Source: a virus. From it: 24,589 nucleotides of DNA. Made by a program: the position numbers and the translations under genes. The notes below the pieces were generated by a model that saw only the letters and a program-made list of their open reading frames with translations, did no database searches and was not told the DNA's origin. Below are positions 9,981-24,589 of the stretch, one piece after another (the first letter of the stretch is position 1; each line of letters opens with the position of its first letter). The stretch is taken from IMG/VR virus record IMGVR_UViG_3300030106_005110, positions 1 to 24,589 of that record; one strand, written 5' to 3'.

Positions 9981-9986
9981 TAGATT

Positions 9987-10682
9987 ATGGCAATAACTTT
10001 ACCAGGAGGATTTAGTATAACAAATAACGAACCAGCAGATGCTAGGATTGCCGTAGCTACTAGTGCATCAAGGTTAACTTTATCTACAGCTAATGTATAT
10101 GAAGGTTTATTGTCTTTCGAACAAAGTACTGATCAATTATTTGTATTAAAAGATGCAACAGCTCCTAGTTCAACAGGTTCGTGGGAAGTAGTAAACATTT
10201 TTACTATTACCGGTTCTCAATACAATTCTCAATATAGTATAGGAATAACAGGTTCTTTAAATGTATCAAATTCATTAGTTATAACAGGTGATGCTACAAT
10301 TTCAGGAGATGCTACTATCTCAGGTGATTTAAAAGTTAGCGGAACTTCTTCAGCAGTTAATACTACTAACCTAACTGTTACTGATAAATTTATATTAGTT
10401 AACTCAGGTTCAAATACTGCATCAGATAGTTCAGGTCTTATTTTTGGAGGCTCTGAAGGAGCTTTATATTCTGGTTCATCATTATTCTGGAATGGAGCTT
10501 TCAATAGTAACGACGGAAGAGTAGCAGTGGGTAGTGGAGTAGCTTCAACAGCAACAACAGCCACACCTTCTTATTATATGGCTGGAGCATTTTCAGGCTC
10601 AGCTAATCAAGCAACAGGATCTCAAGTAGATCATTACGGTAATATAAGAATAGACGGCGGAGATATCTATATCTACGTATAA
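9987..10682 (+). CDS. fibre-like structural protein with GDATIS repeats
   Basis: 231 residues. An N-terminal globular-looking part (VYEGLLSFEQSTDQLFVLKDA, residues about 37-57, is a pattern common in marine phage tail proteins) leads to GSLNVSNSLVIT and the tandem GDATIS-GDATIS-GDLKVS (101-118), a typical repeat of fibre beta-stems, then a Ser/Gly-rich end with LIFGGSEGALYSGSSLFWNG. A terminator follows at 10708, so this ends a transcription unit that probably began at 4433. It has no chaperone domain; the S74 protein in the next unit could serve that role in trans only if the two assemble together, which is speculation. Confidence 0.7.
   Translation: MAITLPGGFSITNNEPADARIAVATSASRLTLSTANVYEGLLSFEQSTDQLFVLKDATAPSSTGSWEVVNIFTITGSQYNSQYSIGITGSLNVSNSLVITGDATISGDATISGDLKVSGTSSAVNTTNLTVTDKFILVNSGSNTASDSSGLIFGGSEGALYSGSSLFWNGAFNSNDGRVAVGSGVASTATTATPSYYMAGAFSGSANQATGSQVDHYGNIRIDGGDIYIYV
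10287..10340 (+). repeat. three 18-base repeats (GDATIS / GDATIS / GDLKVS)
   Basis: Units 10287-10304, 10305-10322 and 10323-10340, in frame. The first two give identical peptides with silent differences; the third is diverged. A six-residue period is typical of a fibre beta-helical stem. Confidence 0.85.
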
Positions 10683-10707
10683 GCAGGCACACATTTTATC
10701 TAGAAAT

Positions 10708-10730
10708 AAGGCACGATAAGTGCCTTTTTT
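10708..10730 (+). terminator. intrinsic terminator after the GDATIS protein
   Basis: 7-bp stem AAGGCAC / GTGCCTT with loop GATAA, ending in six T residues (10725-10730). Starts 26 bases after the stop codon. Confidence 0.88.
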
Positions 10731-10776
10731 AGTTTCATATTAGGCATTTTTAAATATTTTTATTATATTATAAGTA

Positions 10777-10787
10777 CTATTTATATT
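10777..10787 (+). promoter_or_regulatory. candidate late promoter motif (CTATTTATATT)
   Basis: Third clear copy of the motif, 46 bases after the terminator at 10708 and 69 bases before the S74 fibre gene. Same orientation relative to the downstream gene as at 4057 and 4410. Confidence 0.4.
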
Positions 10788-10794
10788 AGAAGCT

Positions 10795-10828
10795 TTATTG
10801 GCCCGAAAGGGAAGTGGGCTCTCAATAA
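10795..10828 (+). promoter_or_regulatory. structured leader upstream of the S74 fibre gene
   Basis: Two nested stems: TTATTG (10795-10800) pairs with CAATAA (10823-10828), and GCCC (10801-10804) pairs with GGGC (10816-10819), leaving bulge TCT. An alternative small hairpin is CCC-GAAA-GGG (10802-10811), a GNRA-type loop. There is no U-run, so it is not a terminator. It is GC-rich for this genome. A five-codon open frame ATG AGT AAC CAA CCG TAA (10828-10845) begins on its last base, just before the real start. Confidence 0.45.
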
Positions 10829-10856
10829 TGAGTAACCAACCGTAAAACTAAAAATT

Positions 10857-11417
10857 ATGCCGAATTGGAAAAAACTGATTACTTCGGGATCACACGCATC
10901 CCTAAGTTCTGTTACCGGATCTATTCTTCTTTCCGGTGATTTACAAGCAAATTCAAATAATATCTTAGGAGTAGCAAAAGTTGGAGCAGCCTCTAACGAC
11001 GAATATTTTGACTTCGGAACTGATGCAATGATTAAAGTTGCAATAGATAATGTCGAAGATTTTAGATTTGTTGATGGAGGAACGTTTCATGCTAATGCTG
11101 ATGTAGTCGCATTTTCTTCTACAGTAGCATCAGATGAAAAGTTGAAAACTAATATAGTTAGTAGTAAATATGGTTTAGATGATATATTAAAATTAGACGG
11201 AAAAGAGTTTGATTGGAAAAAACATTTAAATCAAAAGCATGATATAGGATTTATTGCACAAGACGTTCAAAAAGTAATACCTGAATTAGTAAAAGAGGTA
11301 GATGGATTGAATGGAGATGAATCACATCTTGCTGTAGACTATGCTAAACTAGTTCCTGTTTTAGTAAATGCTATCAAGGAATTAAAGAATGAAATAGAGG
11401 AAATAAAAAATAAATAA
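10857..11417 (+). CDS. short tail fibre with C-terminal S74 intramolecular chaperone
   Basis: 186 residues: a 91-residue passenger (WKKLI then SVTGSILLSGDLQ, a fibre-stem motif shared with the protein at 8169) followed by a peptidase S74 / endosialidase chaperone domain. SDEKLKTNI (92-100) gives the expected Ser92 and Lys97 catalytic pair; then FDW (118-120), HDIGFIAQDVQKVIPELV (128-145), LAVDYAKLVPVLVNAIKEL (158-176) and a terminal coiled-coil helix. In this family the domain trimerises, helps the fibre fold, and cuts itself off before the serine. The passenger would then be a very small mature fibre or tip. Starts after CGTAAAACTAAAAATT, no Shine-Dalgarno. Confidence 0.92.
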   Translation: MPNWKKLITSGSHASLSSVTGSILLSGDLQANSNNILGVAKVGAASNDEYFDFGTDAMIKVAIDNVEDFRFVDGGTFHANADVVAFSSTVASDEKLKTNIVSSKYGLDDILKLDGKEFDWKKHLNQKHDIGFIAQDVQKVIPELVKEVDGLNGDESHLAVDYAKLVPVLVNAIKELKNEIEEIKNK

Positions 11418-12454: not shown

Positions 12455-13309
12455 ATGAAAATAATTTGGGTTTTAGAAAATATAAGGAAACGAAAGGATT
12501 TCTATAGTAGGCTTCACACACTACTTTTACTTTGCTCAGTTAAACTTTGGAAAAAGTTTTATCCTAATGATAACTGTGTACTGTATTGTGATAAAATTAC
12601 TAAAGAGTTTTTAGTAGATTTAAAAGTTGAATGCTTTTGGAATGAAATTATCATATTAGAAGATAATAAATCTATAGACAAAAAAACGTTTTGGGCAGCT
12701 TCTAAATTACAGGTCTTATCTATTCAAAAAGAACCAGTAATAATCTTAGATAACGATTTATTAGTATACTTTCCTATTAAACAATTTTTCGATAACGAAT
12801 CAATATATTTCCATCACTATGAAGATGGTAAAGGATACTACCCTGGTACATTAGATAAATATGTAAAGCAGTTAAGTTATAGAGCTAGATGGCAAACTGA
12901 ATCAGTTAACGTAAGTATTTTAAATTTACCTGATTATAAGTTTACCAACGAATATGCTAATCTTAGTTTAAAAATAATGGAAGAATTTACTGCTATGAAA
13001 GTACCTCACTCTCAATATTTGATATTTGCTGAGCAATTATTATTAAAACACCTTATAGATAAAAATAATATCAAACATAAAAGTATTATTTCTACTTATT
13101 GGAACTGTAAAGATTGGAAATGGGGGGATGATAATGATAGAGGAATATGGAACATCAACCAATCAGGTAGATACCTTAAACATTACGGACCTGAAAAAGG
13201 TTGGTTAGTAGATAATAAACCAGGATATAACTATAGTAATGAGATAAAACATTTGGAAAATTGCTTAAATTTTCCTATATTAGATTTATCTAAGATAAAA
13301 AGATTATAA
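12455..13309 (+). CDS. GT-A type glycosyltransferase-like protein
   Basis: 284 residues. KLWKKFYPNDNCVLYCD (30-46), then FWAASKLQVLS (79-89) and VIILDNDLLVY (95-105) with the metal-binding D99-N-D101 motif, fit the nucleotide-sugar half of a GT-A glycosyltransferase; similar uncharacterised proteins occur in Bacteroidota. Acceptor and sugar cannot be told. First gene of the cassette, 18 bases after the fibre gene with no Shine-Dalgarno. Its stop shares one base with the next ATG, indicating translational coupling to the methyltransferase. No signal peptide or membrane segment, so it acts in the host cytoplasm. Confidence 0.62.
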   Translation: MKIIWVLENIRKRKDFYSRLHTLLLLCSVKLWKKFYPNDNCVLYCDKITKEFLVDLKVECFWNEIIILEDNKSIDKKTFWAASKLQVLSIQKEPVIILDNDLLVYFPIKQFFDNESIYFHHYEDGKGYYPGTLDKYVKQLSYRARWQTESVNVSILNLPDYKFTNEYANLSLKIMEEFTAMKVPHSQYLIFAEQLLLKHLIDKNNIKHKSIISTYWNCKDWKWGDDNDRGIWNINQSGRYLKHYGPEKGWLVDNKPGYNYSNEIKHLENCLNFPILDLSKIKRL

Positions 13310-14070
13310 TGAGTATTTTAGACAAAGAATATATAAGACAGTTTATAACTAATGATGTAAAGTTAGATAAAGACTTAAATGGAGAAGAAATAAAAAAGTT
13401 CGATCCTGTAAAATATAGATGGACACATGGAGCATCAGATTATGATTTAGGAGATGGATTACTTCTTTATAGTATTATTCAATTAATGAGATATAAAATA
13501 TGTGTTTGTTTAGGTTCAGGAGGAGGCTTTATTCCTAGAATAATGACTCAAGCAAGATTAGACTTACACGGTCAAGGTATTTATCAAGGTAATAATGATT
13601 ATAACCATGGAGATATAGGAGTTACTTTTCTAGTAGATGCAGCTAATGGAGTTGGGGGTGAAATAAATTATAAAGAAAAAGAAAGCTTTTTTAGATATCA
13701 ATTTGTTCCTAGATTTATAAACGATACAACTGAAAATGCTTATTATAACTTTTTTGTAAAACAAGATATAAAAATAGACTTATTACACATAGATGCTGGT
13801 CATTCTTACGAAGATGTTAAAAAAGATTTTGAATTATATTCTAATATTATTAGCGATAACGGAATGATATCTATACATGATACTGATGAAAATTTTCAAA
13901 AAGAATTAATAATTACTGAAGATGAAAAAGAATATTATGAGTTTTTTGACGGTCCTCCTAAATTTATAAAAGAAATAGGACCTGAATGGAAACAGTTTAA
14001 TTTTTTTAATAACGGTAATTACCCTTCTAAACCAAGTTCAACCGGAATAACTTTATTACAACGTGCTTAA
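13309..14070 (+). CDS. class I SAM-dependent methyltransferase
   Basis: 253 residues. LGSGGGF (68-74) after a hydrophobic strand CVC is the SAM-binding loop. IDLLHIDAGHSYEDVKKDF (156-174), then DNGMISIHDTD (183-193), is the pattern of the Methyltransf_24-type and related sugar or small-molecule O-methyltransferases found in polysaccharide gene clusters. The HID/HDT histidines and acidic residues are kept. Given its neighbours, a likely substrate is a sugar or glycan, but that is inference. The 8-base overlap with the following GTG-started gene ties the two together. Nothing suggests a DNA methyltransferase: there is no DPPY or PC motif. Confidence 0.75.
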   Translation: MSILDKEYIRQFITNDVKLDKDLNGEEIKKFDPVKYRWTHGASDYDLGDGLLLYSIIQLMRYKICVCLGSGGGFIPRIMTQARLDLHGQGIYQGNNDYNHGDIGVTFLVDAANGVGGEINYKEKESFFRYQFVPRFINDTTENAYYNFFVKQDIKIDLLHIDAGHSYEDVKKDFELYSNIISDNGMISIHDTDENFQKELIITEDEKEYYEFFDGPPKFIKEIGPEWKQFNFFNNGNYPSKPSSTGITLLQRA

Positions 14071-14902
14071 TTTAATAACAGTCGTAGGAAGAAATACTCA
14101 TATATTACCTCATATGTTAAAGCATTATGAAAATATGGTAGATAATGTATATGTTATAGTTTATAGACAAGATACTAATGATGGTATATTAGAAGAAATA
14201 GAAGAATTAGGTATCAAACCTTTTTGGGTTACTACCGATAAAAAGTACCATTGGGAAAGAGTTACCGATTTATACAATACAGTAAGAGCAAAAAAACCAA
14301 ACGATTGGTGGATTATCTCAGACGATGATGAATTACAGAGTTACCCTACTGACCTTGACTATATCGTAAAACAATGCGAAAACAATGGTTATACGTTTGT
14401 CTCTGGAGGTTTTATAGACAGAATAGGTAAAGATGGTATATTTCCTAAAGTTGAGAGAGATACTAATATTTACAAAGAGTTTCCTCTAGGTGGATTTTTC
14501 CGATATCCTATGTCGGGAGCATGTCCTAATAAAGTAACATTAGCAAAGGGAAGTCAAAAAGTTACACCTGGACAACATTATGCTTTGTTTGATAACGGTA
14601 AAAATAGCTGGGGAGCTTATCATCCTAAGAGATTCCCTGTTGAAGAATGTTTTACTCAAGTACATCATTTTAAATGGGATAGTACTTGTATAGAAAGAAT
14701 AAAAGAAGTTGCTGATAATAATCAAGAATATTCGTATTCTGATGAATATATGAAAATGTATGAAGCAATTAAAAATTGCGATTGGAAAATTAATATAGAA
14801 AAAAATGAATATTTAGTTGAAAAATTGAAAAATTTTAACTATATTAGTTATAACGATTATAGCAATTGGAGTAAATTAATAAGTTTAATCATTAAAATTT
14901 AA
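14063..14902 (+). CDS. glycosyltransferase family 2 / DUF23-like protein
   Basis: 279 residues starting at GTG. LNLITVVGRNTHILPHMLKHY (2-22), then VYVIVYRQDTNDGI and WWIISDDDELQSYP (82-95) with D87-D-D89-E90 follow the GT2/GT92-like layout: N-terminal nucleotide-binding strands, then a DDDE metal site. The later HHFKWDS segment (residues about 195-210) resembles the C-terminal HxKW element of these enzymes. The substrate is unknown. Overlaps the methyltransferase stop by eight bases. The upstream bases lack a Shine-Dalgarno, so translation probably relies on coupling. Confidence 0.65.
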   Translation: MLNLITVVGRNTHILPHMLKHYENMVDNVYVIVYRQDTNDGILEEIEELGIKPFWVTTDKKYHWERVTDLYNTVRAKKPNDWWIISDDDELQSYPTDLDYIVKQCENNGYTFVSGGFIDRIGKDGIFPKVERDTNIYKEFPLGGFFRYPMSGACPNKVTLAKGSQKVTPGQHYALFDNGKNSWGAYHPKRFPVEECFTQVHHFKWDSTCIERIKEVADNNQEYSYSDEYMKMYEAIKNCDWKINIEKNEYLVEKLKNFNYISYNDYSNWSKLISLIIKI

Positions 14903-14906
14903 AATT

Positions 14907-15101
14907 ATGGCTACAAGAGTATCTGGAAAAGATGATGCTGCCGCACTTGAAGAAAGAAAAGTGAAAGCATTAGAAAAAATCGCTGCATCTGTTGACGCCC
15001 TTGCTTATTGGTTCGAAGATATCGATAAGACTGAGTGGAGTGAAAGAGCGCAATGGTATTTGACTGAGTACTACGAGAAGTACGTTGCAAAAGGAGAGTA
15101 A
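14907..15101 (+). CDS. small hypothetical protein of unusual composition
   Basis: 64 residues, helical, acidic with tryptophans (ALEKIAASVDALAYWFEDID at about 21-40; WSERAQWYLTEYYEK). No family recognised. By hand count it is about 41% G+C with many C- or G-ending codons (GCC, ATC, TTC, TAC), whereas the LamG part of the next gene is about 23%. It lies four bases after one glycosyltransferase and two bases before the GTG of the next, whose Shine-Dalgarno-like AGGAG lies inside this gene's last codons. Possible later arrival, or a strongly expressed accessory protein. A longer minus-strand frame overlaps it but has no support. Confidence 0.65.
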   Translation: MATRVSGKDDAAALEERKVKALEKIAASVDALAYWFEDIDKTEWSERAQWYLTEYYEKYVAKGE

Positions 15102-15103
15102 GT

Positions 15104-16492
15104 GTGGAGAGATTAGCTATCATAGTTCCTTACAGAAATAGGCAGGAGCAGTTAGATAAATTCACAACTTACATTCAGCAATATTTACAGAATAGGAAGT
15201 ATGATTACTACCTAGTAGTAGTTGAGCAAGATGACGATAAACCGTTTAATCGAGGTAAACTACTTAATATAGGCTTTCAAGAAGCACAAAGAAGGCGATG
15301 TGATTATATCGTATTTCATGATATAGACATGCTTCCTATAGATGTAAATTACGCTTATTTAGATTATCCTGTTCATCTAGCTACTGATGAATTACCTTTT
15401 GAGGAATACTTTGGAGGTATTACTTTATTTCCTACACCCGATTTTGAAAGAATAAATGGTTTTTCAAATAATTATTGGGGATGGGGATTCGAAGATGATG
15501 ACCTTATGTATAGATGTATTAAGAATAATCTTAAATTAAATACTATAAGAAAAGAAATTTTAACTCCTCCTAGAACTGATTTAAAGTTTAACGGAGCAAA
15601 TGCATATATAGAGTTATTAAATCCTATAGACATTAAAAATTCATTTTCTATTCTTATAGATTTTATACCTGAAAAGAATTTCTTCAATCATAGAGCTGAT
15701 TCTGATAAGTTTAGCTTATTCAGTATTCCTGGATATGACTTTTCTATATCTTATACTTCTTTTAATAGGTATAAGTTAGAGTATTTTGACTCCTTAAACG
15801 GATATCATCAAATATTCTCTGATATTAGTAATGTTAAAAACTTACCTACTAAAATTTTTGTTACTTATAATAAATCTGAAGAAACTTTATATTTTTATTT
15901 AAATAATAAATTAGTAGGTAAAAAAGAAGTTTCACAAAACTTTTTTAATTATAATGAAGAATCTAAAGCTTATATAGGATCTAGTAAAGGAACTGAAAGT
16001 TTTTTTAAAGGAACTTTAAATAATATTGCTTTTTATAAAAGTTATTTAAGTAAACCTCAACTAAACAGTATTTATGAAAATAAATATTATAGTTTATCTC
16101 AGGAATTTGAAGATTATAAAGATGCTCATTATTTAACTACTTATTACGATACTAAGTTTGTTAAAGATTATAAAACTATAGATTTATCCGGTAATAGTAA
16201 TCTTGGTAAAATTTATAATTGTGAAATAGTAAAAAGCGAAACTAAGTTAAGAGATGTACAGTTTATTCCTTATAGAAGACTTAGTAAAATAAAGCATCTT
16301 AAACATGATAGTAATGGATTCGAAAACGGTAATTGGAAAGATAAAATGACTAGATGGAATCAATTAAAGTTTCATAATGAAGTTTCTAAAGGTTTTCATG
16401 ATATAAAAAAAGATGGATTAAATTCTTTAGATTTTAAATTAGTAGATAGGACTGTGAAAGGAAAATATATCCATTTAAAAACAGAGTTATGA
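15104..16492 (+). CDS. GT7-family galactosyltransferase-like protein with an inserted LamG domain
   Basis: 462 residues, GTG start with AGGAG nearby. Landmarks of beta-1,4-galactosyltransferases in order: VPYRNRQ (8-14), FNRGKLLNIGF (48-58), FHDIDMLP (71-78; DxD = D73, D75), EYFGG (101-105), INGFSNNYWGWGFEDDDL (117-134). Residues about 155-388 then form a LamG domain (FNGANAYIEL; LYFYLNNKLVGK; AYIGSSKG; DLSGNSNLG at 360-368). After it come KHLKH (397-401) and DGLNSLDFKLVDR (437-449), which match the C-terminal metal-ligand and DGLNSL segments of animal enzymes. So LamG interrupts the catalytic domain. Transfers a sugar, probably galactose or a derivative, in the cytoplasm; acceptor unknown. 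The LamG part is poorer in G+C than the first third. Confidence 0.82.
   Translation: MERLAIIVPYRNRQEQLDKFTTYIQQYLQNRKYDYYLVVVEQDDDKPFNRGKLLNIGFQEAQRRRCDYIVFHDIDMLPIDVNYAYLDYPVHLATDELPFEEYFGGITLFPTPDFERINGFSNNYWGWGFEDDDLMYRCIKNNLKLNTIRKEILTPPRTDLKFNGANAYIELLNPIDIKNSFSILIDFIPEKNFFNHRADSDKFSLFSIPGYDFSISYTSFNRYKLEYFDSLNGYHQIFSDISNVKNLPTKIFVTYNKSEETLYFYLNNKLVGKKEVSQNFFNYNEESKAYIGSSKGTESFFKGTLNNIAFYKSYLSKPQLNSIYENKYYSLSQEFEDYKDAHYLTTYYDTKFVKDYKTIDLSGNSNLGKIYNCEIVKSETKLRDVQFIPYRRLSKIKHLKHDSNGFENGNWKDKMTRWNQLKFHNEVSKGFHDIKKDGLNSLDFKLVDRTVKGKYIHLKTEL
15566..16267 (+). other. LamG domain inserted in the first GT7 protein
   Basis: Residues about 155-388. Shows the usual order of a LamG/concanavalin jelly roll: opening FNGANAYIEL, IFVTYNKSEETLYFYLNNKL strand pair, IGSSKG and FKGTLNNIAFY strands, and the LSGNSNLG motif near the end. 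Hand count gives about 23% G+C over 15541-15960 against about 33% over 15121-15480. Domain edges are approximate. Confidence 0.72.
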
Positions 16493-17907
16493 AATTAGGA
16501 GTTTGTGTACCATACAGAAATAGAGAACTTCATATGCATGAGTTTATTCCAAGAGTAGGCAAATATCTCAAAAGCAGAAATATAGATTTTCAAATGTATT
16601 TTTGTCATCAAGTAGATGATAAATTATTTAATAGAGGGGCTACTAAAAATATTGCAGCTAAACATGCTTTTGAAGAAGGCTGTGACTATATAGTATGGCA
16701 TGATATTGATATGATACCTGAAGAAGGAGGAGGAGCTGACTACTCTTTTCCTACTGAACATCCTCGACACATCGCTACTAAAATATCTCAAATGGATTAT
16801 AAATTAAAATATCATGAATATTTTGGTGGTGCAGTAGTATTTTCTAAAGAACAAGTTGAAAATACAAATGGTTACTCAAATGATTATTGGGATTGGGGAA
16901 TGGAAGACGACGATTTATTTTGGAGATGTTATAAAGAAGGGTACACTAATGATACATATTTATTAGAAAAGGCTATCAAACAAAAATATTTATCTTTTAA
17001 CGGTTGCGATTCTTCAGTAATGATTCCTTATACTAGAGATATAAAAAGTATACCTTCAAGATCTCACACTATTTCTTTATTATGTAGAGCATATCAAATG
17101 CCTGAAAAGCAAAATATACATTTAATTGGTGATAATAAAGCTAAATATGTAGAGTTTCCTATTTTAAGAGTCCCAGGTTATGATTACGGTTTATCCTTTA
17201 ATAATTCAAGAGCTCTGTCTTTACAGTTTTGGAATATGTTTCATCAACATAACTATATGTGGGTTAAAAGATATGATGATCAATGGTCATGGATAACAGT
17301 AGTGATAGATGATATTAGTAAACAAGCTCACTTTTATCTTAATGGAACTGAAGTAGACTCTAAAGGAGGTTATGGAAGTCCATCACCGTTAGAATTTAAT
17401 GGTAGACTTTTAAAATACGATTCTAAACATATCTATTTAGGTTCTTCATTAAACGAAAAAGATAACAGTCCTAGTAAATACTTTAAAGGTGATATTGCAA
17501 GAGTTTATGGATGGAATAGAGCGTTATCTCCTAATGAAGTTGCTAATTTACATAAAGAATTACCTTTAGACGATATAGCTATTAACACAAATTTTAATAA
17601 AGGTATACCCTCAGATTATATCACTGAAAATATAGAATTAAAAGAAGAAAATATAAAAATACCTAATTCTATTTTACCTCATAGAGTAGAAGGAAAAATG
17701 AGATGTTTACCTCATAAAGACGAAGGATTAGTAAATGGCAAATGGGCTAAAGGAGAAACCACAGCTGCTAACGAAAGAAGGTATGTTTTAAAAATGCAGC
17801 AAGATAAACTAAATTATAAAGACGATGGTATCAAGCAAGTAAAGTACGAATTTATAAAAGAGACTAAATTTACTCCTTGGGCTAAAATGATAGATATAAA
17901 ATTATGA
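16489..17907 (+). CDS. second GT7-family galactosyltransferase-like protein with an inserted LamG domain
   Basis: 472 residues, starting four bases inside the stop of its paralogue (ATGA). GT7 landmarks: VPYRNRE (7-13), FNRGATKNIA (47-56), HDIDMIP (71-77), EYFGG (110-114), NGYSNDYWDWGMEDDDL (127-143; Asp135 replaces the usual glycine of WGWG). The LamG block spans about 165-398 (HFYLNGTEV at 281-289; IYLGSS; YFKGDIARVYGWNRALS at 331-347). The catalytic remainder follows: MRCLPH (404-409) at the metal-ligand position and DDGIKQVKYEF (445-455) as the DG-L segment. Same split architecture as the upstream gene but clearly diverged, so the duplication is old. Probably a different sugar or acceptor specificity. 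Confidence 0.8.
   Translation: MKLGVCVPYRNRELHMHEFIPRVGKYLKSRNIDFQMYFCHQVDDKLFNRGATKNIAAKHAFEEGCDYIVWHDIDMIPEEGGGADYSFPTEHPRHIATKISQMDYKLKYHEYFGGAVVFSKEQVENTNGYSNDYWDWGMEDDDLFWRCYKEGYTNDTYLLEKAIKQKYLSFNGCDSSVMIPYTRDIKSIPSRSHTISLLCRAYQMPEKQNIHLIGDNKAKYVEFPILRVPGYDYGLSFNNSRALSLQFWNMFHQHNYMWVKRYDDQWSWITVVIDDISKQAHFYLNGTEVDSKGGYGSPSPLEFNGRLLKYDSKHIYLGSSLNEKDNSPSKYFKGDIARVYGWNRALSPNEVANLHKELPLDDIAINTNFNKGIPSDYITENIELKEENIKIPNSILPHRVEGKMRCLPHKDEGLVNGKWAKGETTAANERRYVLKMQQDKLNYKDDGIKQVKYEFIKETKFTPWAKMIDIKL
16981..17682 (+). other. LamG domain inserted in the second GT7 protein
   Basis: Residues about 165-398. Strands SWITVVIDDISKQAHFYLNG (267-286), IYLGSS, FKGDIARVYGWNRALSPNEV (332-351) are typical of LamG. 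Edges are approximate. Sits at the same place in the GT7 fold as in the first paralogue. Confidence 0.72.
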
Positions 17908-19319
17908 CAGCTGAAACTTCAAAAATATCGTTTACTAATCCTGATTATTTAAATACTAAGAAGAAGTTAGATAAAGTAGGATGTGGTATGTGTCTTGCTA
18001 AATGGACTCAAGTTACTATCCACTTACAAATGGGTCAAACACATTCATGTCACCACCCTTCAACACATCATATACCAGTAGGAGAATTAAAAAGAAATCC
18101 TTCTGCGTTACATAATACTTTATATAAAAAGCAAAAAAGAAAAGAAATGCTGGAAGGTAAAAGACCAGCAGAATGTGATTACTGTTGGAATGTAGAAGAT
18201 AATTCTGAAAGATTTTCTGATAGAGTATTTAAGTCTAATGAAAGTTGGTCTGCTCCTCATTACGATGAAATAGTTAATTTAGGTTGGAGACAAGATTTTA
18301 ACCCTCGTTATGTAGAAGTAGCTTTTTCTAACAACTGTAACTTTAAATGTTCATATTGTGGTCCTTCTTTTTCTTCGGCTTGGGTTCAAGAAGCTAAAGA
18401 ACATGGACCATATCCAACTGATGATAGGTTTAACGATATAGAATATTTAAAAGCTAATAAAAAAATGCCTATACACCATAAAGAGTATAATCCTTATGTA
18501 GAAGCTTTTTGGAAATGGTGGCCTGAATTATATAGAGATTTACATACATTTAGAATAACAGGAGGTGAACCTCTTATGGCTAAAGATACTTGGAAAGTAT
18601 TAGATTATGTTATCAATGAACCTGATCCTAATAAAAATTTAAACTTAGCTATAAACTCTAATTTAGGTATTAATGATAAATTAGTAGATAGGTTTATAGA
18701 AAAGATAAAAAGAATAGAAGATGAGGATAGAGTAAAAGAGTTTATTATTTTTACTTCTGTCGATGGATGGGGAGAACAAGCTGAATATATTAGAAACGGT
18801 TTAGAGTTTAATAGATTTTGGGATAATATGAATAAAATATTAACCGCCTGTCCTAGAGTTAACCTTACTATTATGTCTACCTTTAACGGTCTTTCAGTTC
18901 CTAGTTATAGAAAGCTTATTGACGGAGTTTATACTTTAAAGCAAAATTATACTTCTACCGATAGATATTGGGCTTCAGCAGTATTTTTAGATTCTTCTTA
19001 TTTAAGATTTCCTACTCATCAAACTTTACAAGTTATTCCTTCAGTATGGGCTAACGAAGTTCTTTCTTTTGCTCAACATGCTGATTATTTAGGTATACCG
19101 AAATTCGATAATAAATTAGTAGGTTACTCTGATGTAGAAATTCAAAAATTAAAAAGAGCTTATGATTGGATGATTTCTGCTAGAGATCCTGAAAAACTAT
19201 TAAGGCAAAGATCAAACTTTGGTAGATACTTCCAAGCTCATGATCAAAGAAGAGGTACTGATTTTAAAAAGACTTTTCCGGAATTAGCTGATTTTTACGA
19301 TTATACTTTAACAATTTAA
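17904..19319 (+). CDS. radical SAM protein with extra cysteines
   Basis: 471 residues. The SAM-binding iron-sulphur motif C145-x3-C149-x2-C152 (SNNCNFKCSYCG) and FRITGGEPLM (216-225, GGEP) mark a radical SAM enzyme. Five further cysteines lie before the motif (C27-x2-C30, C49, C91-x2-C94) and could hold a second cluster in a twitch/SPASM-like arrangement placed at the N-terminus rather than the C-terminus. Proteins like this occur in marine phages with no known substrate. Starts with an ATGA overlap to the second GT7 gene and is followed three bases later by a LamG-like protein, so its substrate may be a peptide, a sugar or a glycan made by this cassette; that is inference. Confidence 0.82.
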   Translation: MTAETSKISFTNPDYLNTKKKLDKVGCGMCLAKWTQVTIHLQMGQTHSCHHPSTHHIPVGELKRNPSALHNTLYKKQKRKEMLEGKRPAECDYCWNVEDNSERFSDRVFKSNESWSAPHYDEIVNLGWRQDFNPRYVEVAFSNNCNFKCSYCGPSFSSAWVQEAKEHGPYPTDDRFNDIEYLKANKKMPIHHKEYNPYVEAFWKWWPELYRDLHTFRITGGEPLMAKDTWKVLDYVINEPDPNKNLNLAINSNLGINDKLVDRFIEKIKRIEDEDRVKEFIIFTSVDGWGEQAEYIRNGLEFNRFWDNMNKILTACPRVNLTIMSTFNGLSVPSYRKLIDGVYTLKQNYTSTDRYWASAVFLDSSYLRFPTHQTLQVIPSVWANEVLSFAQHADYLGIPKFDNKLVGYSDVEIQKLKRAYDWMISARDPEKLLRQRSNFGRYFQAHDQRRGTDFKKTFPELADFYDYTLTI

Positions 19320-19322
19320 AAA

Positions 19323-20048
19323 ATGAAAATAGGTTTTGATAATTCATACTTGTTTCCTGCAGGTAATAAAAATGGTTTAGTAAGAAATGAACCAGATGCT
19401 ATATGGACTAAAGACTGTACAGCTATGGTTAGATTTAAACCTGATAACGATAAATTTATAGAAGAATTAGGAGATGAATGGAGAAAAGCTGGCTGTGTTG
19501 TAGGTAAAAATGGAAAGCATATTGGTATATTTTACGCAGTTGGTAAATCAGGAGAAGAAGTAAGACATTTTATAGAATTTGAATATTGGTGCTTTAACGA
19601 AGAGAAAGGCGATGATGATATCAAAGCTATGGTATTCGATGTTACTGATATAAAAGATAGTGAATATTTCGATGTAGTTATAAAGAGAAGAGGTAATAAA
19701 TTTATTTTTAGATTAAACGGCGAAGAGAAAGAAGAAGTAGTAGAAAAATTAACTGATTATAGTTATAGTTTCTTATGGATCGGAGCTGCTACTAGAGTTA
19801 ATCCTGATCATAATGAAGTCTTTTATGGAGATATTCACAAGATGCACATTCAGTACGGATTAACTCCTGAAAGAGATATTGAATTATTTTTTAATAACTA
19901 TGAGGAATTTAATGATAAAACTAAATCTTTAACTAATAAAGATAATATATTTACATCTGATTTTAAAAATACTACTCAATATAAAATATTAGATCAATCA
20001 TTAAACGGTAATCACCCTATAAGATATAGTAAAGAATGGTTAGATTAA
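19323..20048 (+). CDS. free-standing LamG-like (jelly-roll) protein
   Basis: 241 residues, no signal peptide. FDVVIKRRGNKFIFRLNGEEKE (residues about 118-139) matches the IFVTYN...LYFYLNNKL strand pair of the LamG inserts, FLWIGAATR and YGDIHKMHIQYG match their IGSS and FKGxIxxIxxY strands, and the end (FKNTTQYKILDQSLNGNHPIRY, near 215-236) matches DYKTIDLSGNSNLGKIYN of the first GT7 insert. So this looks like the same domain as a separate protein. Probably a carbohydrate-binding or structural partner of the enzymes. Very charged (many Glu/Lys/Asp). Immediately follows the radical SAM gene and overlaps the next gene by 13 bases. Confidence 0.62.
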   Translation: MKIGFDNSYLFPAGNKNGLVRNEPDAIWTKDCTAMVRFKPDNDKFIEELGDEWRKAGCVVGKNGKHIGIFYAVGKSGEEVRHFIEFEYWCFNEEKGDDDIKAMVFDVTDIKDSEYFDVVIKRRGNKFIFRLNGEEKEEVVEKLTDYSYSFLWIGAATRVNPDHNEVFYGDIHKMHIQYGLTPERDIELFFNNYEEFNDKTKSLTNKDNIFTSDFKNTTQYKILDQSLNGNHPIRYSKEWLD

Positions 20049-20890
20049 ATTTTAAGACTTTATACGCTAACGGAGATAGTTGGACAGCAGGAGATATAGT
20101 AGATCCTGATTTATTTGGAGATGATTTATCTAAAGTAAATGATCCTAAAAATAAACCTTATAGACTTCCTAGAGTATGGCCTCATAAAATAGGAAAAGAA
20201 TTAGGAATAGAAGTTATAAATAATAGTCATGCAGGAAGTTCTAATGATAGAATATTTAGAAGCACAGTTAACGATATACTCGGTCTACTTTTAAATAATA
20301 AGCCTGAAGACTTGCTAGTAGTAATTGGATGGTCTTCTCCTGAAAGAAAAGACTTTTTCTATAAATGGCATAATGAAGATGGAGGGGAATGGGAATGCCT
20401 TTACCCAGCTGAACTAGATCACTGGACCTCTGAAAGAAAAGAGCTAATTGACTTTTATAAACTTTATGTAAAGAATCATTGGCATGCTGAAGAATTTATT
20501 ACAAGACACTGTATACATAATATTTCATTACATCATTTTTTAAAATCGTTAAATATTAAACATATATTTTTTAATAGTTTTTATGAGAATAAAGAAGATG
20601 TTCTTAATAAAGATTCACACCAGTTATTAGAGTCTCCTGAATTTGAAAACTATATTTCGGATTTTAATGACAGTACTGAATTTAATACTATTAAAAGATT
20701 AGAAATAAATAATATATTAAAAGAATATAAAAACGTATATAAAAATGTTTTTTATAAACAATCTTTTATATCATTTTTATTAGGATTAAATATAGAAGAT
20801 GAAGTACTAAATTATCACCCAACTGAGAAAGGACATCAATTATGGGCTAGTAATTTAGCTAAATATATTAGTAGTAAGTATGAATTATAA
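20036..20890 (+). CDS. SGNH-hydrolase-like protein 1
   Basis: 284 residues. G13-D-S15 (ANGDSW) is the block I serine motif; NNSHAGSSNDR (62-72) supplies the block II glycine; VVIGWSSPE (95-103) stands where block III has GxND, with Trp-Ser in place of Asn-Asp; NYHPTEKGHQLWA (259-271) is block V with His261, but Asn259 stands where an aspartate is usual. The fold is therefore SGNH/GDSL, with possible acetyl- or ester-removing activity on glycans, but changed active-site residues leave catalysis uncertain. ATG lies 13 bases inside the LamG-like gene. Overlaps the second SGNH-like gene by 11 bases. Confidence 0.65.
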   Translation: MVRLNFKTLYANGDSWTAGDIVDPDLFGDDLSKVNDPKNKPYRLPRVWPHKIGKELGIEVINNSHAGSSNDRIFRSTVNDILGLLLNNKPEDLLVVIGWSSPERKDFFYKWHNEDGGEWECLYPAELDHWTSERKELIDFYKLYVKNHWHAEEFITRHCIHNISLHHFLKSLNIKHIFFNSFYENKEDVLNKDSHQLLESPEFENYISDFNDSTEFNTIKRLEINNILKEYKNVYKNVFYKQSFISFLLGLNIEDEVLNYHPTEKGHQLWASNLAKYISSKYEL

Positions 20891-21626
20891 AGATTTATAT
20901 ATTAATGGATGTAGTTTTACGAAAGGACATGCTTTAAAACCTAAGGATACATGGCCTACAAAACTATCTAATCTTTTAAGTTTAAGATTAATTAATCATT
21001 CAAAAAACGCACAAGGATTAGAATCTATAGTTTATAATAGTATAGCTCATTTAAGCGAATTAGATCCAAAAGAAACCTTAGTAGTTATAGGTTTTACCTG
21101 GTTGGATAGATACCTAGTTCAGGCTTTTGGTTATAACTTTACGTTAACCGGTGGAGATTTAGCTAATGAAAGAACTCAATGGGGGCATAGATTAGGTGAT
21201 AGAGCATCATCTCCTTTTAGTATATATGAACATTATACTGAAAAAAATGAAAACTATTTTAGCGATGATATTAGAGAAAGACTCAATAATATATTAACGA
21301 AATATAGAGAGTACCTAAAAGAATTAATGACTGGAGATCCTGAGTATCTAAAACATGTTCAACTGAAAGGAGTTACTCTTAAAATAATGCTTCAGTCATT
21401 TTTAAAAGATAATAATTTTAATTATAGATTTATAGATTTCGCTGCCGATTCAGGTTTATATAGTAGAATTATAAAAACTAATCCTTCTATAAAAAATAAA
21501 TTAGATTATAATAAGATAATAGATATAGATTATAAAAAGTTTTGCGGTACACATCAAGACGGACATCCAACAGCTGAATGCTGTACTTATATAGCAGATA
21601 AGTTAAATAATGAATTTAAATTATGA
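20880..21626 (+). CDS. SGNH-hydrolase-like protein 2
   Basis: 248 residues. YINGCSFTKG (8-17) replaces GDS by GCS, a variant I know from marine phage SGNH-like proteins; INHSKNAQGLESI (38-50) is block II-like; VVIGFTWLDR (68-77) is block III-like without Asn; the end has D227-G-H229 (QDGHPTAECC), an intact Asp/His pair. Shares the order and spacing of the upstream gene, so they are probably distant paralogues. If active, the nucleophile is Ser12. It may add or remove acyl groups from a glycan. ATGA overlap with the following gene. Confidence 0.63.
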   Translation: MNYKDLYINGCSFTKGHALKPKDTWPTKLSNLLSLRLINHSKNAQGLESIVYNSIAHLSELDPKETLVVIGFTWLDRYLVQAFGYNFTLTGGDLANERTQWGHRLGDRASSPFSIYEHYTEKNENYFSDDIRERLNNILTKYREYLKELMTGDPEYLKHVQLKGVTLKIMLQSFLKDNNFNYRFIDFAADSGLYSRIIKTNPSIKNKLDYNKIIDIDYKKFCGTHQDGHPTAECCTYIADKLNNEFKL

Positions 21627-22903
21627 TTAGTTTAGAAGATAATTTTAATCAGGTCAGTTTGCATAATCCTTCAAAGGATATTCTTTCTATATATCAAGGT
21701 ATTGATGAAATACAAGAATATGATCCTAGAGGATATAAGATGGTTAGACCTTTATTTTCTCATTCTGATATACCTAGATTTTTAGGAGTAGATAAAATAA
21801 ACTATAATGAATTTGATTGGAATAAAGAATTTATATATCCAGTTGTATTACATCATAATAATAAACTGGCAGCTAAATACATAAGTTTAATTCCTATAAA
21901 AATTATAGAAAAAATACGTTCTAAACAGTGTAAATTAATTTTAGATAATACTATGGAAGGAGATAGAGTTAATAGTTTCTATACAGAATTATACCGCTCT
22001 ATAGATAAGCTAAAACTACCTGCTTCTCAGATATATTACGTTACTAATAGTTTAGTAGCCGAAACTGAACATGAAAAATGGAAAACTACTAATAACAGGC
22101 AGTTAAATAATATTAATGTTATATCTTTTATGTATAACGTAATGGATGTTCAACGGTTAAAAAAGCTAGGACATTTACCTGACAAAGTAAATATAGAAGA
22201 AGAAATACAATATAAAAGAGACAATTTTATTAATATAAAAGAATTTTTAAAAGTAAATAGAACTGGTAGACCTGAGCGTAATTTATTAATGTTCTATATT
22301 AATAAGAATAAATTATATGATAAATTTAATTTAAGTTTTCCTGATCTTCCTGATTATAATTACCCTAATATAAACTTTGGAGATCTACTATCAGCTGAAA
22401 ATATAAAAGAAGTAAAAGATAAATGCCCATTTGATATAGATTCTACTGATAGTACTAACCATGGAGAACCTGGTTTTGGTGAAGGTAAATTTAATGCTGA
22501 TCTACCTTTTTTACCTGTACATTATAGAAATAGTTTAATTAGTATAGTTATGTGCGCTTTTCCTTTCGTAGAAAATGCTTGCCATTTACATAGTTCAACT
22601 TTTAACCCTATATATTGCGGTCATCCTATTATACAGTTTGGTCCTTATAAGCATTTAGAAATATTAAAAAATAATGGATTTAAGACATTCGATAAATGGT
22701 GGGATGAAGATTACGATAACTTAACTGAAGGTTGGGATAGATTTAAAGGAGTATTGAGAAATATAGAAGAGTTAAATAAAAAATCTAAAAAAGAGCTGTT
22801 TGATATGTACGTAGATATGAAAGACGTATTACAACATAACTCAGATTTAATACAGAACTATAATGGTGATAATTTATTAAGACAGAGAATTATAAATGAA
22901 TAA
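21623..22903 (+). CDS. glycosyltransferase-like protein of marine phage type
   Basis: 426 residues. In the middle FLKVNRTGRPERNLLMFYI (208-226) and near the C-terminus HSSTFNPIYCGHPIIQFG (323-340), then GFKTFDKWWDEDYD (352-365), follow a motif set (F-x-NR...R, then T-x-x-PI..HP.I..G, then GFKTF..WWDE.YD) that I know from glycosyltransferase-like proteins of marine T4-like phages. The usual T-W-K-P is T-F-N-P here. Probably a GT-B-like sugar-transfer protein; the donor is unknown. The N-terminal 200 residues are diverged. Starts with ATGA overlap and its stop overlaps the next ATG by 8 bases. Confidence 0.55.
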   Translation: MISLEDNFNQVSLHNPSKDILSIYQGIDEIQEYDPRGYKMVRPLFSHSDIPRFLGVDKINYNEFDWNKEFIYPVVLHHNNKLAAKYISLIPIKIIEKIRSKQCKLILDNTMEGDRVNSFYTELYRSIDKLKLPASQIYYVTNSLVAETEHEKWKTTNNRQLNNINVISFMYNVMDVQRLKKLGHLPDKVNIEEEIQYKRDNFINIKEFLKVNRTGRPERNLLMFYINKNKLYDKFNLSFPDLPDYNYPNINFGDLLSAENIKEVKDKCPFDIDSTDSTNHGEPGFGEGKFNADLPFLPVHYRNSLISIVMCAFPFVENACHLHSSTFNPIYCGHPIIQFGPYKHLEILKNNGFKTFDKWWDEDYDNLTEGWDRFKGVLRNIEELNKKSKKELFDMYVDMKDVLQHNSDLIQNYNGDNLLRQRIINE

Positions 22904-23327
22904 CGATTTTTATAACAGTAAATATACTATTAGCGGGGATATAGATGATATAGATATTCCTTTCAATTTTGATGTATATCAAGGGGATTATAATTCCGTT
23001 TATATGCAAATAAAAGAATATGAATTAAATAATGATGAGTATTATAATGGTCATTTAATAGTTAATGATAAAAATAAACTAAAGAATATAAATTTAGATA
23101 ATATTAAACAGTATAAACTAACTCCTAATAATGTTTATTTTTGTAAAGTAGTCCATGACGGAATAGATTCAGCTTGTACAGTTAATGATGGTTTAATTTT
23201 ATGCAGTTCGTGGGTTTTACCTTTTATAGCTAATGAGTATAGAACTACTAATTCACTTTATGGTGATATGGCTTGCCATAGAATTGAAATGAAAGAATTA
23301 TATAATGAAGATAGCAGTTTGTATTAG
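22896..23327 (+). CDS. hypothetical protein in the glycan cassette
   Basis: 143 residues, acidic, Asn/Asp/Tyr-rich, with no recognised domain. ISGDIDDIDIPFNFDVYQGD (residues about 12-31) and YFCKVVHDGIDSACTVNDG suggest a beta-containing small fold. Four cysteines are present. Overlaps the previous gene by 8 bases and the next gene by 23 bases, so it is clearly part of the same translational chain. Not seen elsewhere in the window. Confidence 0.6.
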   Translation: MNNDFYNSKYTISGDIDDIDIPFNFDVYQGDYNSVYMQIKEYELNNDEYYNGHLIVNDKNKLKNINLDNIKQYKLTPNNVYFCKVVHDGIDSACTVNDGLILCSSWVLPFIANEYRTTNSLYGDMACHRIEMKELYNEDSSLY

Positions 23328-24084
23328 TGGTCAATTAAGAAAATGGAAAGTAGGACATCATAATCAAAAATGGTTTTGGTCTACTGCTAATTTTCCTGAC
23401 GTACAAGTAGATTATTTTGGTCATACCTGGACATATAGCGGAGATAGGAAAGGAGTATCTCAAGAGTATATTAATAGAGAGGTCGATAAAGAAGAGTTTT
23501 TAGAGTTTGCTAATGCATTTAAATTTAAAAAAGTTTTATTTGATGATAGAAGAACTCCTTTTTTCTATAATAATGATCATTGGAGTAGTTTATTTTTTAG
23601 TCTGAGTAAATCCTTAATGTTAAAAAGGGAGTATGAAATAGAAAATAACTTTACTTATGACGTAGTAGTTAAGTCTAGACCTGATGTGGTATTCGATCCA
23701 GGTAAACATTTTGAAATACCTCACTTATTTGATAACTGTATACATTCTACTCATGGCGGTACTATGCCTATGGAGTTTAATAAATTTAATTTTAACGATT
23801 GTGTATTTTTAGGAAATTCGTATACTATGGACCTTTTGACTAACCTTTACTTTTATAGACAAGCAGGTATTAATGAAAATACTAAAGGTAATAAAAATAT
23901 TCATCCTATAGGACCTGGTACCTTAATGATGGATTATTTTAGTGAATATGGAATTACTCCGTTTTTTGATTTATATTTTCAAGAAACATTATTAAAAGAA
24001 GGGTGTCCTGAAGGATTAAATTTGTTTGATAGAGCTGATTTTATGAAAATGAATCAATATTTTAGAGAGTGGTATACTAAATGA
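23305..24084 (+). CDS. glycosyltransferase-like protein
   Basis: 259 residues. KIAVCISGQLRKW (2-14) is a typical N-terminal strand and loop of a group of polysaccharide-associated transferase-like proteins, and VVKSRPDVVFD (121-131) with Asp127 and Asp131 looks like their SRxD metal or nucleotide site. Then HPIGPG (about 200-205) and a helical end. Substrate unknown. No signal peptide. The start lies 23 bases inside the preceding gene and the stop overlaps the next ATG (ATGA). Confidence 0.58.
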   Translation: MKIAVCISGQLRKWKVGHHNQKWFWSTANFPDVQVDYFGHTWTYSGDRKGVSQEYINREVDKEEFLEFANAFKFKKVLFDDRRTPFFYNNDHWSSLFFSLSKSLMLKREYEIENNFTYDVVVKSRPDVVFDPGKHFEIPHLFDNCIHSTHGGTMPMEFNKFNFNDCVFLGNSYTMDLLTNLYFYRQAGINENTKGNKNIHPIGPGTLMMDYFSEYGITPFFDLYFQETLLKEGCPEGLNLFDRADFMKMNQYFREWYTK

Positions 24085-24589
24085 AAAGGAAAATAGGTTT
24101 TTTTGTCTGTTCTAATGGATTAGGACATTTTAGTAGAGTATTACAGGTATCTAAATACTTAACGTCTGATTTTGATATAGATATTTACTGTGAAAAATTT
24201 CAATATGAAAAATTTAAACCTAATTTAAATGCTAATTTTCATTTTTATAAAATTAGTAACATAAGATGGGATGAAACATTAGTTAAAAATGAAGTAAACT
24301 TTGAAAGGTATTTAAAATGGTGTACTTTGTATGGGCCTGCTACTTTAAAATATGATATAGTAGTAAGTGATAATTTAGTAGGTTTAGCAAGATTTAGAAA
24401 CGACATAATATTATCAGGTTCGTTTTTATGGAAAGATGTTTTTTTTAATAAATTTAATAACAATAAACTTACAGATTTTGATAATGAATTACTAAATAGG
24501 TTTAACCCTTTAATTATTACTAATAAGTATGTTGAAACTGGTTCATTAAAAAATTATAATAATAAAAAAAGTTTCGGATGGGGTTGTTC
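24081..24589 (+). CDS. GT-B glycosyltransferase, N-terminal part (cut by window edge)
   Basis: Open from the ATG at 24081 to the right edge: 169 codons with no stop. The start reads MKRKIGFFVCSNGLGHFSRVLQ-like, with the GLGH-x2-R loop (residues about 13-19) typical of the first Rossmann domain of MurG/GT28-like and related GT-B enzymes, followed by helix and strand SKYLTSDFDIDIYCE. It overlaps the preceding stop (ATGA) and continues the chain of coupled genes. The C-terminal sugar-nucleotide half is outside the window, so the family is not fixed. Confidence 0.65.
   Translation, partial: MKRKIGFFVCSNGLGHFSRVLQVSKYLTSDFDIDIYCEKFQYEKFKPNLNANFHFYKISNIRWDETLVKNEVNFERYLKWCTLYGPATLKYDIVVSDNLVGLARFRNDIILSGSFLWKDVFFNKFNNNKLTDFDNELLNRFNPLIITNKYVETGSLKNYNNKKSFGWGC

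Follow-up and report, generated by a model that had tools for sequence, protein, structure and literature searches.

Tandem viral GT7-type glycosyltransferases with a LamG-like domain inside the catalytic domain

Enzymes of the GT7 kind make milk sugar in mammals, and the activity characteristic of the family is galactosyl transfer from UDP-Gal to GlcNAc, Glc or Xyl. The described animal members, B4GalT1 (PDB 1tvy, 1nf5, 2ae7) and B4GalT7 (4irq, 3lw6), carry a transmembrane anchor and a stem, and the flexible lid of their active site (residues 338-365 in human B4GalT1; PMC6198961) follows directly after the EDDD helix and a strand. Lactose synthase is composed of B4GalT1 and alpha-lactalbumin, the added protein changing acceptor specificity (PMC6198961). 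In other families acceptor choice is steered by a lectin domain, namely the C-terminal lectin of the ppGalNAc-transferases (GT27; PMC4432651) and CBM94 of MGAT4A/GT54 (PMC9296478, PMC12616123), each a separate C-terminal module on a linker. The GPI-GalNAc transferase PGAP4 has a GT-A fold, modelled and not solved, which is split by two transmembrane helices (PMC5785973).

Here we describe two neighbouring proteins of a marine phage, P1 and P2, encoded in a 24,589-nt window that covers positions 1 to 24,589 of IMG/VR virus record IMGVR_UViG_3300030106_005110 (Table 1). Their reading frames, order and coordinates agree with those given in a first-pass annotation, and the stop codon of P1 is overlapped by the start codon of P2 (ATGA). 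P1 and P2 have the whole catalytic fold in common with B4GalT1 and B4GalT7 (Z of about 26, 2.1 Å), including DxD, Trp loop, EDDD, metal-ligand His and DGLNSL tail, but are without the anchor and the stem. In contrast to the animal enzymes, they contain about 230 extra residues, a LamG domain, directly before the lid. This differs from the ppGalNAc-transferase and MGAT4 layout, as a different lectin-type fold is present between two GT7 pieces and not outside the catalytic domain. It also differs from lactose synthase, where the added alpha-lactalbumin is unrelated, is not joined to the enzyme and acts in trans, whereas the phage LamG is covalently built in, with a putative effect on acceptor choice. 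PGAP4 is similar in that its GT-A fold is interrupted by a module proposed to move the active site towards the acceptor; however, this module consists of tandem transmembrane helices in a different glycosyltransferase, and the insert in P1 and P2 is a LamG beta-sandwich. In the literature searched, which takes in few subscription papers, we found no glycosyltransferase with an inserted LamG or lectin domain, and a LamG-type domain at such a place is new as far as our searching goes. The earlier remark that no enzyme of this layout had been described therefore agrees with the literature searched, but the split GT-A fold of PGAP4 (PMC5785973) is a partial precedent.

Table 1. Positions of P1, P2, their parts and the conserved neighbouring genes in the window
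Feature	Position (nt)	Strand	Basis
DUF6734 protein, conserved neighbour	12455..13309	+	Pfam; in 43 related loci
Methyltransf_24 methyltransferase, conserved neighbour	13309..14070	+	Pfam; 74 loci
Family-2-type glycosyltransferase (Glyco_tranf_2_4), conserved neighbour	14063..14902	+	Pfam; 83 loci
P1, GT7 glycosyltransferase with inserted LamG	15104..16492	+	ORF, 462 aa, GTG start; Pfam; AF2
P1 N-terminal GT7 part, aa 1-150, donor-binding half	15104..15553	+	Profile; PDB phmmer
P1 DxD, aa 73-75	15320-15328	+	
P1 WGWGFEDDD, aa 125-133	15476-15502	+	
P1 inserted LamG/ConA-like domain, aa 156-384	15569..16255	+	Pfam Laminin_G_3; PAPP-A LamG superposition
P1 C-terminal GT7 part, aa 388-462	16265..16489	+	Profile; conservation
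P1 metal-ligand H401	16304-16306	+	
P2, GT7 glycosyltransferase with inserted LamG	16489..17907	+	ORF, 472 aa, ATG start; Pfam; AF2
P2 N-terminal GT7 part, aa 1-157	16489..16959	+	Profile
P2 DxD, aa 72-74	16702-16710	+	
P2 WDWGMEDDD, aa 134-142	16888-16914	+	
P2 inserted LamG/ConA-like domain, aa 164-392	16978..17664	+	Pfam Laminin_G_3 E 1e-10; PAPP-A superposition
P2 C-terminal GT7 part, aa 396-472	17674..17904	+	Profile
P2 metal-ligand H409	17713-17715	+	
Twitch-domain radical SAM protein, conserved neighbour	17904..19319	+	NCBIfam NF033640, 351 bits; 92 loci
Stand-alone LamG-like protein, same operon	19323..20048	+	Homologous over its length to the inserts

The two pieces of the GT7 domain

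Pfam matches Glyco_transf_7N, Glyco_transf_7C and Laminin_G_3 in both proteins, and the Glyco_transf_7C match breaks off at profile position 67 of 78 in P1 and 62 of 78 in P2, right where LamG starts. Against a GT7 profile that we made from 77 uninterrupted relatives, each protein matches in two pieces which are colinear and abut in the profile: residues 2-147 (hmm 3-159) and 389-455 (hmm 157-224) of P1, and residues 2-152 (hmm 4-155) and 398-463 (hmm 158-221) of P2. The N-terminal part of P1 matches B4GalT1 in the PDB with an E-value of 2.6e-33 (phmmer), and PF13733, the N-terminal GT7 region with the PYRNR and FNR motifs, is found in all 61 P1-type and all 49 P2-type relatives. The C-terminal part of P1 holds H401, the lid, the lid helix TRWNQL, DGLNSL (residues 437-442) and the last two strands, and that of P2 holds H409, the lid and DGIKQV; the DGLNSL of P1 and the xLxH histidines of both proteins thus lie after the insert, as had been claimed. 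The C-terminal tail scores above 10 bits against the GT7 profile in 186 of 188 relatives versus 2 of 3429 decoys, one of the two not being a true decoy, since genuine GT7 sequence remained in the excised piece owing to a long insert. By hhalign, the tail alone matches uninterrupted GT7 with a probability of 98.4 (E 7e-15, columns 154-225 of 238).

AlphaFold models of P1 (pLDDT 94.2, pTM 0.89) and P2 (pLDDT 92.4, pTM 0.85) agree with this division. Residues 1-462 of P1 superpose on B4GalT1 179-398 (208 aligned, Z 26.6, 2.2 Å) and residues 1-472 of P2 on B4GalT1 180-398 (215 aligned, Z 26.9, 2.1 Å), so that the two GT7 pieces together match the whole B4GalT1 catalytic domain as one domain. B4GalT1 is aligned across the insert, and the C-terminal residues pack on the GT7 core in both models, as the annotation had proposed; a C-terminus that did not pack there was named in it as a refuting outcome. 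The insert superposes separately on LamG and pentraxin folds with Z of about 18-22, the value for the PAPP-A LamG domain being 21.8 both for P1 residues 156-388 and for the P2 insert. In the alignment it replaces human residues ~331-333, directly before the lid. The insert, first put at about 235 residues, holds at that size and can be refined to a strict ~229-235 aa with short linkers; the median gap from one profile piece to the other is 244 aa.

It is therefore well supported by the split colinear profile matches and the superposed models that in both paralogues a LamG/ConA-like domain of ~230 residues splits the GT7 catalytic domain. An ordinary end-to-end fusion, a complete GT7 followed by LamG and an unrelated C-terminal domain, would account for the fact that the strong HMM matches come from the N-terminal piece alone and for the weak similarity of the tail to single PDB sequences (a tail-only profile finds B4GalT1 C-termini in 12 of 13 rows, at E 0.45-0.9; we do not rely on this search). 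However, neither Pfam nor the GT7 profile finds a complete GT7 before LamG, the finding named beforehand as refuting an insertion, and profiles, decoys, superposition and hhalign identify the tail as the missing GT7 C-terminus. The fusion is refuted at the level of sequence profiles and predicted structure and we consider it wholly improbable.

Catalytic residues and the inserted domain

DxD, the Trp-loop W, the catalytic-base D (P1 D131, P2 D140) and the donor-specificity Tyr (P1 Y102, P2 Y111) are kept in all 110 proteins (61 P1-type, 49 P2-type). The Tyr corresponds to the human Y285 position, matched by the motif YFGG (PMC6198961). The metal-ligand His is kept in 109 of 110 (H401 in 60 of 61 P1-type, H409 in 49 of 49 P2-type proteins). 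Invariant residues are D73, D75, W127, E130 and D131 in the P1 type and D72, D74, W136 and E139-D142 in the P2 type, and R417 of P1, equivalent in the lid helix to human R355, is kept in 61 of 61. Because all catalytic residues are conserved, a pseudo-enzyme reading is disfavoured. P1 and P2 are best explained as metal-dependent inverting GT-A enzymes that have the GT7 fold and retain catalytic competence, and they are probably beta-galactosyltransferases using UDP-galactose as the presumed donor.

PF13385 matches the insert in 55 of 61 P1-type and 49 of 49 P2-type proteins. Its predicted jelly-roll fold is that of LamG, pentraxin, PAPP-A N-terminal and sialidase lectin-like domains, with weak sequence similarity. 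Within the PDB, the P1-type insert is closest in sequence, again weakly, to an S-layer-domain protein and the sialidases NanB and NanC, whose matched regions are lectin-like domains N-terminal of the catalytic part. The stand-alone LamG-like protein of the same operon aligns by hhalign with P1-type inserts (probability 99.3, E 3.5e-20, 212 columns) and P2-type inserts (probability 97.2, E 3.4e-11), which suggests that the insert has the nature of a module. LamG/ConA-like folds also bind proteins or only serve as a scaffold. The insert may act as a lectin and bind the acceptor.

Distribution, selection and neighbouring genes

The search for proteins of the same domain order found the break in 249 protein entries, which form 50 clusters at 70% identity; some of the entries are one gene fetched twice. 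Of 213 viral matches, 202 were classed as split at the same place. Tandem pairs or triplets of split enzymes are present in nearly all loci. An assembly artefact or a frameshifted gene is ruled out by this recurrence and by intact frames and low dN/dS across many independent contigs. No P1 or P2 match was found by tblastn in 50,697 records of cultured phages, and PHROGs gave weak matches only. Among the best 80 matches in bacterial genomes, the split form is limited to three MAG contigs (L101-L103) which have the phage operon order and are therefore probably phage DNA. The layout is widespread in apparently uncultured marine viruses. Uninterrupted bacterial and viral GT7-like proteins (for example L018 3758-4657, L104, L176) belong to the same family by profile and have colinear N and C parts, but only 60-105 residues follow their EDDD helix versus ~320 in P1 and P2.

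On a tree of the N-terminal part, the presence of LamG changes 1-2 times (0 of 500 shuffles as low), so the insertion appears to be essentially ancestral, with a single gain and two gains of LamG both compatible with this tree, and no other insert was seen at this site among the viral GT7 examined. The dN/dS is 0.03-0.06 for whole genes and 0.045-0.08 for the insert; both GT7 halves and the insert are under purifying selection, the P2 inserts evolving faster than the GT7 halves. These observations show that a GT-A core can accommodate a complete folded domain after the helix with the catalytic base and ahead of the metal-ligand histidine, and that the LamG-split state can persist over large sequence divergence.

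Besides the genes in Table 1, the island holds SGNH-like, sulfotransferase, NeuB-like and nucleotide-sugar genes. Tail-fibre-like proteins are encoded at 8169-11417 of the window. It is located within the structural gene block, with head genes upstream in the window and a tail sheath gene downstream (L182:17095), which suggests late expression with the virion genes.

Possible role of the insert

On balance we favour P1 and P2 being active glycosyltransferases with an acceptor- or particle-binding module before the lid, encoded in an extensive glycan-synthesis island of the phage. The insertion would go back to an ancestral phage gene, in which a LamG-type domain entered a turn on the enzyme surface; this turn comes after the EDDD helix and the next strand and leads into the lid segment with the metal-ligand histidine. 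Both enzyme halves would still fold together. On this turn, LamG would border on the active site at its acceptor side. It may bind the acceptor, either an existing glycan or the protein of the virion or fibre that bears it, and would then confer specificity and processivity in cis; alpha-lactalbumin and the separate lectin domains of ppGalNAc-transferases play such a part for other glycosyltransferases. Together with the methyltransferase, GT2, radical SAM, LamG, SGNH-like, sulfotransferase, NeuB-like and nucleotide-sugar genes, P1 and P2 would serve in the synthesis of a glycan. Its most likely site is the virion, since the island lies between structural genes.

It is possible, though we think it rather unlikely, that the insert is a protein-docking module and not a lectin, which would hold P1 and P2 on a structural protein or on each other and so bring the active site to the tail fibre or capsid as it grows. 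The stand-alone LamG homologue could be the partner, the split enzymes occur in tandem, and B4GalT1 forms homodimers with segment 328-334, the insert site by alignment, near the acceptor of the second subunit (PMC6198961); the PDB relatives of the P1-type insert nevertheless lean to carbohydrate binding. Slightly less probable again is that P1 and P2 act during infection on the O-antigen or capsule of the host and not on virions, the remodelled surface for example blocking superinfection or adsorption to debris. Nucleotide-sugar, NeuB-like and sulfotransferase genes would serve just as well for making or modifying a glycan of the host surface, but the position of the island argues for expression with virion genes and no membrane anchor was seen by eye in P1 or P2. 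That LamG is a neutral passenger, with no catalytic or binding role, seems to us very unlikely: the site is a turn tolerating length and the P2 inserts evolve faster than the GT7 halves, yet the insert is essentially ancestral, constrained and retained throughout the 249 entries, with no other insert seen in its place among the viral GT7 examined.

More specifically, but only as a tentative extension of the binding-module reading, LamG might be an internal counterpart of alpha-lactalbumin, setting lid closure and acceptor choice by binding a glycan or virion protein, with tandem copies of different LamG specificities assembling stepwise a nonulosonate- or sulfate-containing glycan on marine phage particles. 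The split enzymes offer a direct handle on the control of lid movement and acceptor choice in the B4GalT fold. In a widespread, apparently uncultured marine phage group whose long glycan-synthesis operon holds multiple LamG-split enzymes, self-decoration of the phage particle becomes a testable proposal. P1 position 418, which corresponds to F356 of the human N-acetyl pocket, is occupied instead by W, K or E, and D replaces G in the P2 Trp loop in 47 of 49 proteins; donor or acceptor may therefore differ between the copies.

Division of the GT7 domain in P1 and P2

GT7 and LamG are both known domains. In the two adjacent phage proteins P1 and P2, Pfam detects Glyco_transf_7N, Glyco_transf_7C and Laminin_G_3, and the Glyco_transf_7C match ends at profile position 67 (P1) or 62 (P2) of 78, which is where LamG starts. 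The first-pass annotation had placed LamG inside the GT7 catalytic domain of both proteins; both open frames are present where it located them, and the Pfam order and the split profile match bear it out.

A search of 84,980 genomes of bacteria and archaea gave mostly uninterrupted relatives, in which the stretch beyond the EDDD-helix part is 60-105 residues long, compared with about 320 for the phage type. A GT7 profile was built on uninterrupted sequences: 76 encoded on genome contigs plus the protein of the viral locus L018, 77 in all. Instead of a complete GT7 domain ahead of LamG, this profile finds two colinear pieces on either side of it that abut in profile coordinates (P1 residues 2-147 at positions 3-159 and 389-455 at 157-224; P2 residues 2-152 at 4-155 and 398-463 at 158-221). 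The split class accounts for 202 of the 213 viral profile matches; its two pieces lie a median of 244 aa apart. The C-terminal GT7 part, or tail, scores above 10 bits in 186 of 188 real tails versus 2 of 3429 decoys (shuffled or LamG sequences), and one of these two held real GT7 sequence because of a longer insert. A tails-only profile aligns with the C-terminal columns of the uninterrupted-GT7 profile (probability 98.4, E 7e-15), and against the PDB it returns beta-1,4-galactosyltransferase 1 (B4GalT1) in 12 of 13 rows with the correct C-terminal segment, each match being weak (E 0.45-0.9).

AlphaFold2 models, built with alignments of 61 (P1) and 49 (P2) relatives, have a mean pLDDT of 94.2 and 92.4 and a pTM of 0.89 and 0.85, respectively. 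Superposition by VIA-align places B4GalT1 179-398 on the P1 model 1-462 (208 aligned, Z 26.6, 2.2 Å) and B4GalT1 180-398 on the P2 model 1-472 (215 aligned, Z 26.9, 2.1 Å). The N-terminal part can supply no more than its roughly 150 residues, so some 55 or more of the aligned residues must lie downstream of it, as far as the extreme C-terminus. The alignment thus spans both GT7 pieces, reaching P1 462 and P2 472, and the models show a split but complete predicted GT7 fold. Closed and ligand-bound B4GalT1 entries rank slightly higher than open ones. The insert superposes separately on the LamG domain of PAPP-A (Z 21.8), on 4dqa, a putative carbohydrate-binding protein of Bacteroides, and on pentraxins (Z ~18).

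The insertion site was placed by alignment of the N part to B4GalT1 and, for the C part, by the match of H401 to H343. In the P1-B4GalT1 alignment the insert takes the place of human residues ~331-333, a turn that links the post-EDDD-helix strand to the lid. The human enzyme has its lid at 338-365 and binds the metal through H343 and M340; W310 belongs to its Trp loop, and in a dimer model the 328-334 segment of one subunit approaches the other subunit's acceptor (PMC6198961). The common GT-A core takes in the xED helix and C-His, and its hypervariable regions are HV1 (beta3-alphaC), HV2 (beta6-beta7) and HV3 (tail from beta8) (PMC7185993); the insert separates the xED helix from C-His and may fall at the start of HV3. 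Lectin domains are already known at the end of glycosyltransferases (PMC4432651, PMC9296478), whereas here LamG sits inside the GT7 core, and a modelled GT-A precedent is split by transmembrane helices rather than by LamG (PMC5785973). No case of LamG inside the GT7 core was found in the literature searched, and in that scope this arrangement is what is new.

Distribution and history of the split form

Relatives of both types are abundant in marine viral contigs; for P2, the best 80 of 192 found were retained. Every viral protein found in the uninterrupted-GT7 scan is either continuous or split by 216-290 aa, with no different insert seen at the same site. The split form occurs in 249 entries, some of them one gene fetched twice, and in 50 after clustering at 70% identity. 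The P1-type and P2-type insert families are homologous (E 5.5e-30). On a tree of the GT7 N part the LamG label requires two changes, or possibly one, a number as low being reached in 0 of 500 shuffles. The insertion took place once or twice, followed by duplication to tandem pairs and sometimes triplets.

In some phages the pair is preceded by a third GT7-LamG copy, and several of these copies group as their own subclade. A P1-type subgroup (L029, L032, L053, L091; proteins of 430-433 aa) has a shorter insert, in which the helix region that follows the last LamG strand is missing. Three contigs assigned to Pelagibacterales and Flavobacteriales MAGs (L101, L102, L103) have the same phage operon and probably represent viral DNA caught in those bins.

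Catalytic residues and selection

Conservation was scored over 61 proteins of P1 type and 49 of P2 type. Neither type shows any change in the two Asp of DxD, the Trp of the Trp loop, the Glu and first Asp of EDDD or the Tyr equivalent to human Y285, and the metal His is conserved in 109 of 110 proteins. All 61 P1-type proteins have Arg where the human lid helix has R355, and the residue after it varies (W, K, E). The P2 Trp loop reads WDWG instead of WGWG, with D for G in 47 of 49 P2-type proteins, an unusual change within an otherwise strictly conserved donor loop. Since catalytic residues are kept while the lid-helix residue and the P2 Trp loop are altered, both enzymes are probably active but may differ in acceptor or donor. 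In pairwise comparisons dN/dS lies at 0.03-0.06 over the whole genes and at 0.045-0.08 over the insert, so purifying selection acts on every part, the insert included.

The glycan island and possible function

The virus record is 46.5 kb long, with T4-like-type head genes upstream of P1 and P2 within the window. Its closest cultured relatives by capsid protein are the Flavobacterium phages 'immuto' (69%), in which P1 and P2 were not found. The conserved operon order is DUF6734, methyltransferase, GT2, P1, P2, twitch radical SAM, LamG and SGNH-like genes, the last label resting on a GDSW motif read by eye. P1 stop and P2 start overlap in ATGA, as do P2 and the radical SAM gene, so the three are probably translated together. 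The stand-alone LamG-like protein could plausibly be the origin of the insert or a sister domain, and is possibly its partner. Past the window, further glycan-type genes continue for ~17 kb and end before the tail sheath gene; together with 12455-24584 they form a glycan-building island of ~29 kb embedded in the structural gene block.

Features of the P1-P2 region, of the glycan island and of related loci
Feature	Position	Remarks
Glycan island, window part	12455-24584	
Small unannotated open frame	14907-15101	64 aa; between GT2 gene and P1
P1	15104-16492 (+)	462 aa; insert 156-384, tail 388-462
P2	16489-17907 (+)	472 aa; insert 164-392, tail 396-472
P2 Trp loop	16888-16914	
Twitch-domain radical SAM protein	17904-19319	NF033640; two or three tandem relatives often in related phages
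Stand-alone LamG-like protein	19323-20048	no Pfam match; homologous over full length to inserts (prob 99.3, E 3.5e-20)
Glycan island beyond window	24590-41600 (L182:1-17000)	UDPG_MGDP_dh (nucleotide-sugar dehydrogenase-like), Sulfotransfer_2 (sulfotransferase), CTP_transf_3 (cytidylyltransferase), two NTP transferases (sugar nucleotidyltransferases), radical SAM/SPASM, aminotransferase, 2-hydroxyacid dehydrogenase, NeuB-like
Third GT7-LamG copies	L224:796-2280; L237:1210-2661; L013:1990-3570; others	

The analysis shows that the catalytic residues are conserved, that the insert is under selection and that P1 and P2 co-occur with glycan genes, and we consider it moderately likely that P1 and P2 are active enzymes whose LamG domain binds the acceptor or its carrier. 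Under this proposal they would transfer galactose or a similar sugar, in a metal-dependent manner, onto a growing glycan, LamG would hold this glycan or its carrier on the lid side, and the finished product would decorate the virion. The main rivals are that the insert is a protein-docking module and that the enzymes modify the host surface; both overlap partly with the acceptor-binding proposal.
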